The position numbers and the translations under genes are program-made. From assembly GCA_014879635.1 (NCBI GenBank), contig JACSRR010000201.1:1-39780 (forward strand): 39,780 nt of DNA. Reading direction: 5' to 3'. This document shows, in pieces, positions 12,533-24,113 of the stretch; positions within the stretch are counted from its first letter, which is position 1, and every line of letters starts with the position of its first letter. Origin of the DNA: Ignavibacteriaceae bacterium. GTDB lineage: Bacteria; Bacteroidota; Ignavibacteria; Ignavibacteriales; Ignavibacteriaceae. The notes below the pieces were generated by a model. The model was not told the origin of the DNA, ran no database searches, and saw nothing but the letters and a program-made list of their open reading frames with translations.

Positions 12533-12805
12533 TTAATCAATTACATTGTTTGTGTGGTCAACTATTCCCACAATAGAAGCATCAACGGGAGCGTGGTCAA
12601 CCATGAGGGGTATTACTGCTTCACTTGCGGTAATGTATATAACGGTTTCTCCTCTTCCGGCACCCATTGTATCAGCAGCAATTATCGGTGCGCCGCAATT
12701 AGTATTGTCAGAAGTAACCGGTTGAATAATTAACAAAGAAATTCCCGTTAAAGTTTGATATTTCTTTGTAGCCCAAATATTTCCGATAACTCTCGCTAAA
12801 AACAT
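12533..12805 (-). CDS. EutN/CcmL microcompartment vertex protein (second copy)
   Basis: A 90-residue BMC-P domain protein. MFLARVIGNIWATKKYQTLTG is the characteristic N-terminus, followed by the DTMGAGRGETVI block (residues 45-56) and a closing VDASIVGIVD strand. Family members form pentamers that cap the vertices of microcompartment shells. It starts 3 bp after the first copy, which it resembles but does not duplicate closely, so this is an old paralogous pair. No hexameric shell gene (BMC-H or BMC-T) or encapsulated enzyme occurs in the window, so a satellite shell locus or a shell-independent role is possible. Confidence 0.88.
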   Translation of the reverse strand: MFLARVIGNIWATKKYQTLTGISLLIIQPVTSDNTNCGAPIIAADTMGAGRGETVIYITASEAVIPLMVDHAPVDASIVGIVDHTNNVID

Positions 12806-12808
12806 AGC

Positions 12809-13084
12809 TTACTCTTCTTTAGGAACATCAAGCTTATCTACAATTGCCATAATAACTGCGTCAATCGGCTTATTTTTAGTAAAATTTGTTTGACGGGCAG
12901 AACTTCCCGTTGCAACTAAAACAATTTCACCCTCACCAGCACCCACACTATCAACTGCAATCACAAAGTTAGATTTTTCGTTGTACTCAAGGTCTAATTC
13001 TCTAACAATTAAAAATTTAGCACCTGTAAGATTTTCATCTTTTTTAGTTGCCCAAACAGTTCCGATTACTCTTCCGATAATCAC
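12809..13084 (-). CDS. EutN/CcmL microcompartment vertex protein (first copy)
   Basis: A 91-residue BMC-P domain protein. It has RVIGTVWATKKDENLTGAKFLIV at the N-terminus, DSVGAGEGEIVLVATGSSARQ (residues 45-65) and a final PIDAVIMAIVD strand, all typical of EutN/CcmL pentamers. The start is GTG at 13084: an in-frame TAA is directly upstream, and GAGG lies 5 bases before the GTG. It is the first gene of the group that continues with the second vertex gene, rpoD and the NlpC/P60 lipoprotein. I see no clear promoter in the AT-rich 230 bp upstream. Confidence 0.88.
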   Translation of the reverse strand: MIIGRVIGTVWATKKDENLTGAKFLIVRELDLEYNEKSNFVIAVDSVGAGEGEIVLVATGSSARQTNFTKNKPIDAVIMAIVDKLDVPKEE

Positions 13085-13314: not shown

Positions 13315-14487
13315 TTACTTGGATTTAATTTCAGAAAGAAATTCTTTTCCCGAAAGTGAGTTTTCAATATCAAAATACTCTGCAACTGTTTTTGCTGCAT
13401 CCGAAAATGAATCTCTAATGCCCAGATTGACCGAAGGCAATTTCTCCGAGTAAACTAATAAAGGAACATATTCACGGCTGTGATCTGTAGATTTTGTTGT
13501 GGGGTCATTTCCATGGTCAGCCGTTATTATCAATAAATCATCTTTTGACATTGAGTCAATTATTGTTTCAAGATTATCATCAAACTCTTTAAGCGCTTTT
13601 GAAAAACCTTGGGGGTCATTTCTATGTCCAAAGTAAACATCAAAATCAACCAAATTAGCTAATATAAAGCAACCCTTAGTTTTTTTCATAAATTTCAATA
13701 TTTGCTTACAGCCATCTTCATTTGACTCAGTATGGATAACCTCTGAAATAGAGCGGTAATTGAATAAATCACCAATTTTACCAATGCCTACAGTTCTTAA
13801 ACCATTCTCGTACAGTAAATCCAAGAGAGTATCACCGGTTGGTTCAAGCGAGTAATCAACTCTATTTGTTGTCCTTACAAAAGAACCGGGTTCTCCTATA
13901 AAAGGTCTTGCAATTACTCTGCCTACTATATTATGCTTTAAAACTTCGTTTCTTGTTATCTCACAAATTTCATACAACCTGTCTAAACCAAAATGTTCTT
14001 CGTGCGCAGCAATTTGAAAAACAGAATCAGCTGAGGTATAAACAATCGGGAAACCGGTTTTAATATGTTCTTCGCCCAACCTGTTAATAATTTCAGTTCC
14101 TGATGCCGTACAATTTCCGAGAAATCCGCCGCATCCTGTTTTTTGTAAAAATCGATCCATTAACGCCGGCGGAAACCCTTCGGGAAAATACTCGAAGTCA
14201 ATTTTTGAATGAAGCCCCATTAATTCCCAATGCCCGCTTGTAGAATCTTTTCCTTGCGATATTTCTTTCATTTTACCGAAAGAAGCAAGAGGTTCAATTG
14301 CAGGTTCAACACCTTTAATTGGTCCTATATTTCCGAGACCTAATTTTTGCAAATTAGGCAAATTTAAACCATTTGTAACTTCCGCAATATGTGCTAAAGT
14401 GTTGCTGCCTTGGTCGTTATAGGCAATTGCGTCAGGTAATTCACCAATTCCAACGCCGTCAAGAACAATGAAAACTACATTTTTAAT
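13315..14487 (-). CDS. deoB: Phosphopentomutase DeoB, apparent ATT start
   Basis: A 390-residue enzyme of the alkaline-phosphatase superfamily that interconverts (deoxy)ribose 1- and 5-phosphate in nucleoside salvage. The N-terminal metal-site motif VVFIVLDGVGIGELPDA is present, with DSTSGHWELMG and the late TADHGNDPTT metal site. The family N-terminus maps to an ATT codon at 14485-14487; no ATG, GTG or TTG lies between it and the in-frame stop at 14506-14508. The first conventional codon (TTG at 14361) would delete the catalytic Asp. TGAGG (14493-14497) sits 5 bases before the ATT and overlaps the stop of the upstream gene, so the two are coupled. Usual family length is about 390-410. Confidence 0.88.
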   Translation of the reverse strand: MKNVVFIVLDGVGIGELPDAIAYNDQGSNTLAHIAEVTNGLNLPNLQKLGLGNIGPIKGVEPAIEPLASFGKMKEISQGKDSTSGHWELMGLHSKIDFEYFPEGFPPALMDRFLQKTGCGGFLGNCTASGTEIINRLGEEHIKTGFPIVYTSADSVFQIAAHEEHFGLDRLYEICEITRNEVLKHNIVGRVIARPFIGEPGSFVRTTNRVDYSLEPTGDTLLDLLYENGLRTVGIGKIGDLFNYRSISEVIHTESNEDGCKQILKFMKKTKGCFILANLVDFDVYFGHRNDPQGFSKALKEFDDNLETIIDSMSKDDLLIITADHGNDPTTKSTDHSREYVPLLVYSEKLPSVNLGIRDSFSDAAKTVAEYFDIENSLSGKEFLSEIKSK

Positions 14488-14494
14488 AACTACC

Positions 14495-16456
14495 TCAGGT
14501 TGTTTTTATAATCCGGTTTGATCTTTCTGAAACTGTTTTAGTTAATGTTAATTGAGCTTTTTCAATAAGGTTTTCAACCGTACTCTTTTCATTCACGGGT
14601 AAAACAACACCCGAGATTGTAATAGTTGTTTTTTTAGAGTACAACGAGATAGGTTCACCCGATACTTTACCTCTAAGTCTCTCAGCCCAAACAAAAGCTT
14701 CTTCCTGCGGCAAATTGAACCTGTAAATAGCGTAGGTTTTATCATTTATTTTGCCTAAAAGTGACATTGGCTCAACTTCATTAATCAAAATTTTTGCTAG
14801 AGCGTTACTTGCCTTTTTAACCGGATTAGTTTCAAATAAGTTTGGGTCATAAATTAAAGCATCTAATTCTAAAAGGATAAAACTACCCGGTAATTTAAGA
14901 ATTTTTGTTTTTTGTAACTCACCTTGCAACCGCTCTAAAAAATAGGCTTTTGTGAATACATTTGTTTCAACATCCCTTGTTATAAATCTTTTGAGTGTTG
15001 TTTGCATATTTTGACTAAAAAGATAAAAAGCAAGTGCCCCGAGAGCATTAAAAAGAAACATCGATTCTTGTGAAGTAAAAGCTCCTGTTCTTTTGCTTTC
15101 GTAACATACTGCACCGTAGCAGAAATCTTTATATACAAGAGGGATAGTCATAAATGACCCGGTTAACTCAATATTCTCATTTTCCTTAAATCTTATAAAC
15201 TTGCTATCAGAAAGGTCATTAATAATTCTGGGACTTTTACCACTTATACTTTGGTAAACTATACTCAGCCCCTCTTCTAAAATTGTTCCCTCTCGCAAAT
15301 AACTTTTATTCGTATTATTAAACACAACTGCAGCAATTGATTTATTAGTGTTTGGGTCTGTTTGAACCAGAACACATTGGTCACAAGAAATAAGTTGAGC
15401 TAAATTGTCATAAACTAATGTATGAATATCTTCAGGAGTTTCAATTCTCAAAAGATTTTCATAAAGTTTGTCAACTAATTCCAACTTTTGTTCTGCATTC
15501 GCATTGTTAAATTTGCTCTCAAAAAGCCCAAGATATAGTATAATTAGTCTAACATATTTTCCTAAAGTATAAATGCTTTCTTCACCAAATGCATCATTTT
15601 CCTTAGAGTCAATTAAAAGCACTCCAATTAAACTGTTTGAGTATTGCACCGGAACTGCGGCAACACTTCTTATCTTCTGTGATTCAATATAGTATTTAAT
15701 ATTGTCTGATTCTGCCGCCGGTAATAACTCTGCAATAAAATTTGCTTTTTCGGATTTTACAACATTACTTAAAAAATCATCCTCAATTTCTAAATGTGAA
15801 TCAATTAATTGTTCTTTGTTACCTGAACTTAACTTAACAAATATTTTTTCACTTGATTTAATATATCCAAAATAAATTGCTGTATGAGCAGACTGAGCTT
15901 CTCTAATCACTTCTAAAAATAGCTCGAAAACATGATTAATCTCTTCTCTTTTACTCCCAAAATTCGGAATTGTAGAATTTACAATCTCTCTGAATTTCCG
16001 GTTTATTTCGTCTGTGTCTGTTTCATAAGTTTTAGAATGAATTGATACTTTCTTAACTGCTTGTTCGCTTGAAGTTGTATAATGACTACCGTTATGAGAT
16101 ATAGGAATTGGAACAACAGGATTTTCTGAAGTATCAGGATATTTTTCAGCGCTCGTAGTTTTATCCTCATCCTGATGAGGTAAAGCCGGAGAATCTTTGG
16201 TTATTGTTTGAACAATCGTGAAACCTTCATCAGAATAAACGGGCGATTCAGCAGAGTTTGTGTTTGATGAAGAATGTACGGAATAACTACCAGACTTATT
16301 ACTTAGTCCAAACAATGCATCTCTTTCACTGTAAGCATAAATTGCAAGCATAATCAAGAAAATAGCAGATATGATTGAGGCAACTGTTCCGCCAAAAACA
16401 ATTAGCAACATTAATGAACCGGGAAGCACTATAAAAAGTAGGGATTTTTTAATCAT
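14495..16456 (-). CDS. Membrane GAF-GAF protein with degenerate GGDEF-like domain
   Basis: A 653-residue protein. Two N-terminal hydrophobic helices (about 5-42) are followed by a Ser/Thr/Asn-rich low-complexity linker (50-150). Two GAF-like sensor domains follow (about 170-310 and 330-485), and then a C-terminal region shaped like a diguanylate cyclase domain (about 495-645). Where a working cyclase has GGDEF, this one reads LLGKINDKTYAIY (566-578), so catalysis is very unlikely. It may bind a nucleotide or serve as a dimerising signalling module. The stop overlaps the ribosome binding site of deoB, so the two are cotranscribed. Confidence 0.75.
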   Translation of the reverse strand: MIKKSLLFIVLPGSLMLLIVFGGTVASIISAIFLIMLAIYAYSERDALFGLSNKSGSYSVHSSSNTNSAESPVYSDEGFTIVQTITKDSPALPHQDEDKTTSAEKYPDTSENPVVPIPISHNGSHYTTSSEQAVKKVSIHSKTYETDTDEINRKFREIVNSTIPNFGSKREEINHVFELFLEVIREAQSAHTAIYFGYIKSSEKIFVKLSSGNKEQLIDSHLEIEDDFLSNVVKSEKANFIAELLPAAESDNIKYYIESQKIRSVAAVPVQYSNSLIGVLLIDSKENDAFGEESIYTLGKYVRLIILYLGLFESKFNNANAEQKLELVDKLYENLLRIETPEDIHTLVYDNLAQLISCDQCVLVQTDPNTNKSIAAVVFNNTNKSYLREGTILEEGLSIVYQSISGKSPRIINDLSDSKFIRFKENENIELTGSFMTIPLVYKDFCYGAVCYESKRTGAFTSQESMFLFNALGALAFYLFSQNMQTTLKRFITRDVETNVFTKAYFLERLQGELQKTKILKLPGSFILLELDALIYDPNLFETNPVKKASNALAKILINEVEPMSLLGKINDKTYAIYRFNLPQEEAFVWAERLRGKVSGEPISLYSKKTTITISGVVLPVNEKSTVENLIEKAQLTLTKTVSERSNRIIKTT

Positions 16457-17350: not shown

Positions 17351-17389
17351 TAAAAAATAAAAAAGCAACCCGTTAAACAGGTTGCTTTT
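17351..17389 (-). terminator. Terminator of the ribosomal protein block
   Basis: A 10-bp perfect stem AAAAGCAACC (17361-17370) with GGTTGCTTTT (17380-17389) around a 9-base loop. On the minus strand a long T-rich tract follows (complement of 17351-17364). It starts 18 bp after the rplQ stop and marks the end of the operon. Confidence 0.92.
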
Positions 17390-24004: not shown

Positions 24005-24042
24005 TTTAATAACTCCGTTGCGTTTCTAATAATAATAATTTG

Positions 24043-24113
24043 CTGCCGGATGAGGACTCGAACCTCAACGTACGGCTCCAAAGGCCGCTGTCCTACCATT
24101 AGACGATCCGGCA
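24043..24113 (-). tRNA. tRNA-Gln(TTG) inside the spc operon
   Basis: A complete 71-nt cloverleaf. The acceptor stem TGCCGGA/TCCGGCA is perfect. The D-arm carries TAATGGTAG, the anticodon stem is GCGGC/GCCGT, and the loop CTTTGGA gives anticodon TTG for CAA codons. The T-arm is TGAGG/CCTCA with loop TTCGAGT, and the discriminator is G. CCA is not encoded. It lies in operon direction, 11 nt after the rplR stop and 38 nt before the rpsE start, so it must be cut from the ribosomal protein transcript unless it has its own promoter. Confidence 0.96.

Follow-up and report, generated by a model that had tools for sequence, protein, structure and literature searches.

The deoB gene of an Ignavibacteriaceae bacterium, encoding phosphopentomutase, is almost certainly translated from an AUU codon, at positions 14487-14485 on the minus strand of the 39,780-nucleotide stretch of DNA analysed here (the window). 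The homologous codon is AUU, AUC or AUA (together, AUN) in 20 genomes from 12 genera, all belonging to the window's family (f1). The codon is probably retained to hold initiation down, as is known for infC, pcnB and the Staphylococcus aureus genes cvfC1 and ccpN.

A phosphopentomutase gene that opens with ATT

The deoB frame extends from stop to stop over positions 13315-14505 (minus strand), and the gene counted from ATT (13315-14487) comprises 390 codons. Read on that strand, an in-frame TAA (14508-14506) is followed by AAA CAA CCT GAG GTA GTT, the ATT, and then AAA AAT GTA GTT TTC ATT GTT CTT GAC, the last of these being the codon for Asp10 (14460-14458). ATG, GTG and TTG are all absent from the deoB frame between the TAA and a TTG at 14361-14359, which is codon 43 and whose use would delete Asp10; the sequence-only reading, which had proposed the ATT start, was thus correct in finding no conventional codon in this interval. 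It was also right in placing TGAGG just upstream: the Shine-Dalgarno core GAGG (14496-14493) stops 5 nt short of the ATT, and the surrounding TGAGGT pairs with CACCTCC with a duplex energy of -6.9 kcal/mol. This core overlaps the TGA stop (14497-14495), located 7 nt before the ATT, of an upstream gene on the same strand (14495-16456). That gene, whose end abuts deoB, encodes two GAF domains (Pfam match 8e-10) and a degenerate GGDEF-like C-terminus (weak, below cut-off).

The product counted from ATT matches the phosphopentomutase family TIGR01696 of NCBIfam over residues 4-381 with 472.7 bits, against a cut-off of 341.2, and NF003766 with 535.3 bits. Its alignment with the Bacillus cereus phosphopentomutase structure (PDB 3m8w, E 5.9e-121) begins at residue 2. 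Asp10 pairs in this alignment with the Asp in the equivalent motif of 3m8w, which we take to be the metal ligand Asp13, and is invariant in all 20 AUN genes. The conserved N-terminus with its Asp is therefore encoded upstream of the first conventional start, as had been claimed.

Other features were noted in the window, all on the minus strand. Directly after deoB, two tandem genes (12533-13084) encode EutN/CcmL microcompartment vertex proteins, and deoB may belong to a microcompartment pathway for sugar phosphates. After rplQ, a terminator-like hairpin of 13 pairs with its T run (17361-17389) overlaps the TTG start of engB/yihA (17368), with deoB downstream of it; at this site relatives carry a conserved sequence that closes with a T run, such as GGTTACTCTTTTTTT. 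Between rplR and rpsE, inside the cluster of ribosomal protein genes, lies a tRNA-Gln(TTG) gene (24042-24113).

Distribution and history of the AUN start

We collected deoB from the order and, after dropping duplicates and one contig-edge artefact, retained 146 usable genes. At the position homologous to the window's ATT, these have ATG (76), TTG (31), GTG (19), ATT (12), ATC (7) or ATA (1) and no other codon, that is, NUG in 126 genes and AUN in 20, the window gene included. The position is therefore the start codon of the family. Alignment with close relatives had been suggested as a check, and in it the nearest clades all have ATT, ATC or ATA, with ATG confined to more distant members of the family. 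The condition that had been named as refuting the proposal, ATG in relatives as a sign of an assembly error or strain-specific mutation, thus did not refute it. One genome (G033) holds a second deoB (L106, contig C66) that starts with ATG and groups with a sister family; it is probably contamination of the draft.

On a species tree built from 31 concatenated proteins and rooted on G056, one clade with support 100/100 has an AUN deoB in all 14 of its members. Outside it, G018 also has an AUN codon (ATT) and is the sister of six ATG genomes. The deoB tree itself gives three changes between AUN and NUG and about five swaps among ATT, ATC and ATA. These patterns suggest that AUN had either a single origin, at the base of the family, with reversion in one branch, or two origins. 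Although the third base varies within the AUN clade, none of the genomes in it has turned to AUG, and other genes in these genomes mostly start with ATG (483 of 591, about 80%). Judged by this distribution and by the Shine-Dalgarno sequences described below, the AUN codon of deoB does not reflect a sequencing error and is best read as a weak start that has been maintained.

The alternative that survives best, though we consider it unlikely, is that the codon has no regulatory meaning: the clade would tolerate AUN, through a relaxed IF3 or a changed initiator tRNA, and deoB would simply have drifted. One ancestral change could indeed account for most AUN cases. However, a drifting codon would be expected to return to the ATG used by most other genes, and here the third base has kept changing. 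Tolerance should also be visible elsewhere. Setting deoB aside, 49 aligned gene families from the ribosomal and cell-wall clusters showed no AUN start; rpmD of the window and other apparent exceptions proved on inspection to have ATG. A wider screen comprised 773 gene tests in AUN genomes and 306 in NUG genomes, covering a few per cent of a genome, and the 101 rows it flagged were judged by eye. Only deoB was judged to lack an NUG start, the remaining rows being antisense frames, genes with NUG placed as in their homologues, or broken frames. Genome-wide use of AUN was thus seen in neither survey.

The initiator tRNAs that we found carry only a CAT anticodon. An Ile-type initiator was considered, as GGGCTNATAACCC matched with GAT or AAT in G006, G007, G008 and G012, but none of these matches is recognised as a tRNA by ARAGORN. 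An altered anti-Shine-Dalgarno sequence was likewise rejected: the canonical CACCTCC is present in G007, G009 and G034, wherever the end of the 16S gene could be read, most genomes giving no pattern match.

The gene for IF3 served as a positive control for the detection of AUN starts. Located by tblastn throughout the order, infC has an AUC start after GAGG in most genomes, including most of those with an AUN deoB. This is the expected result and validates the start-codon method; retention of AUC also argues against a general tolerance of AUN starts. In the window's own genome, by contrast with these, infC (L194, G000:C190:337-840) apparently starts with ATG without a clear Shine-Dalgarno sequence, which is a point in favour of drift, as autoregulation may be altered there. 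Genus g10 has TTG or ATA. The infC starts in these genomes point to a possible loss of IF3 autoregulation in this branch.

Sequence upstream of the AUN codon

A second alternative, in which AUN would encode an internal Ile of a protein begun further upstream, through a non-canonical start, a frameshift or readthrough out of the GAF gene, appears very improbable. Its appeal is that only Ile codons replace NUG at this position, and that some distant deoB genes have ATG or GTG ahead of an Ile or Val codon here. However, in 18 of the 20 AUN genes an in-frame stop lies 0-10 codons upstream with no NUG in between; in one of them (L060 of G002) the stop TGA directly adjoins the ATT, with no codon in between. 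The other two (L020 and L180) have an in-frame TTG at least 9 codons upstream, in sequence without homology to the deoB N-terminus. Amino-acid identity in the deoB frame among the 20 genes is 0.05-0.28 at codons -12 to -1, the 0.28 at codon -3 reflecting the GAG of the Shine-Dalgarno sequence, and rises to 1.0 at codon 0; in-frame stops occur at many upstream positions. Relative to deoB, the GAF gene occurs in each of the three possible frames. Conservation that starts at the AUN codon, together with all three upstream frames, rules out any conserved fusion, frameshift or readthrough. The Shine-Dalgarno spacing also fits initiation at the AUN codon, with pairing ending 1-7 nt before it across the 20 genes.

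The upstream gene ends 7, 8, 9, 10, 14 or 15 nt before the AUN start, except in G099, where the same method gives 77 nt. In that genome the sequence before deoB (L059) reads ACAAAG where the congener L180 reads ACATAG, so that the GAF frame may continue into deoB in this one case.

The last alternative, a sequencing or assembly error or a decaying gene start, could be suspected because the window comes from a single draft genome of 480 contigs, but it has next to no chance of being correct: 19 other genomes, among them the one-contig G007 and the six-contig G009, have AUN at the same position, which rejects assembly error for the trait as such, the exact third base of the window's own codon being less certain, and the deoB frame is intact and scores far above its family cut-off.

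Shine-Dalgarno sequence and start codon

We return to the reading that we favour, a start kept weak by selection. A Shine-Dalgarno sequence precedes the AUN codon in all 20 genes, with a median energy of -6.55 kcal/mol (range -3.9 to -10.2), whereas the median for the 52 NUG deoB genes in this family is +0.5 (p 9e-11); the gap from the upstream stop to the start is likewise shorter, with a median of 9 nt versus 33 nt (p 5e-6), although both p values treat related genomes as independent when there are only 2-3 independent switches and 1-3 independent pairs. Other genes have similar Shine-Dalgarno energies in AUN and NUG genomes (-5.9 versus -5.6, p 0.29), so the difference is specific to deoB.

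The NUG deoB genes of the family lack a Shine-Dalgarno sequence relative to other genes (p 6e-21), and in sister families 44 of 74 deoB genes have a GTG or TTG start, versus 22% for other genes (p 2e-11), bearing in mind that the genes used for comparison come mainly from the ribosomal and cell-wall sets, are highly expressed and favour ATG and good Shine-Dalgarno sequences. Together, these observations suggest that weak initiation of deoB seems to be general in the order, some lineages achieving it with a weak codon and others by lacking a Shine-Dalgarno sequence. This apparent trade between start codon and Shine-Dalgarno sequence makes selection for low deoB initiation testable. A hairpin over the deoB start was considered as well and rejected, as fold z-scores average +0.8 and the region is, if anything, open.

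Comparison with known systems and a possible mechanism

To our knowledge, few bacterial genes keep a non-NUG start. The infC gene, encoding IF3, starts with AUU, AUC or AUA and is autoregulated. Like infC, deoB keeps its AUN start across species with a Shine-Dalgarno sequence upstream, but its AUN codon is conserved in one family only and, as its product is a metabolic enzyme, it would have no autoregulatory loop. The sequence-only reading had named infC and pcnB as the main genes with AUU starts; this holds for those two but needs updating, as S. aureus cvfC1 (AUU) and ccpN (AUA) have conserved starts with strong Shine-Dalgarno sequences and about 10% of the output of AUG (PMC13009471). They share with deoB the conserved AUN start and the strong Shine-Dalgarno sequence, although they are unrelated genes from another phylum and deoB is located tightly behind its upstream gene. 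Chromosomal pcnB of Escherichia coli is translationally limited by AUU, according to the account of Binns and Masters (2002) given in PMC13009471; as far as that account goes, AUU is common to both genes, with deoB swapping AUU, AUC and AUA across genera. Another case is Streptomyces sigR, with a GTC start repressed by IF3, an effect shown by mutation (PMC5472188). It resembles deoB in having a non-canonical start, missed by annotation, within a gene pair, but its codon is GUC and it encodes a stress regulator.

In all 20 genes the AUN codon matches fMet-tRNA(CAU) at its first two positions but not at the third. IF3 tolerates nothing but Watson-Crick pairing at the first two positions and selects against weak pairing at the third (PMC10158994). 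Drawing on work with infC, pcnB, cvfC1 and ccpN, we propose that the Shine-Dalgarno sequence would hold the 30S subunit at the deoB start, probably assisted by ribosomes terminating on the GAF gene 7-15 nt upstream. The ordinary initiator tRNA would pair there despite the mismatch, and IF3 would reject most of the resulting complexes. DeoB would then begin with Met, at a low rate on the order of a tenth of that from AUG. Selection probably keeps the start weak because little DeoB is needed, or because it is needed at a level that follows IF3 activity. That the AUN codon serves IF3-dependent regulation is a tentative suggestion by analogy. Equally speculative is its extension, in which DeoB synthesis would be coupled to IF3 activity and lineages that went to AUG would have kept output low through loss of the Shine-Dalgarno sequence.

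Implications

We found no earlier report of an AUU start for deoB in the open-access literature, and nothing relevant, by title or abstract, among start-codon reports on Ignavibacteria. The finding points to a systematic annotation error, because gene callers limited to ATG, GTG and TTG would trim DeoB. The expectation that they would clip the active site is borne out in 11 of the 20 genomes, where the first downstream NUG lies beyond the metal-binding residue, and does not apply to the remaining genes. It also adds to the genes with a conserved non-NUG start a metabolic one, spread over 12 genera. If the proposed coupling to IF3 is true, the exchange between pentose phosphates and nucleosides would respond to translation-initiation capacity across the family, and this response would run through deoB, which shares its strand with rplB and lies about 15 kb downstream of it.
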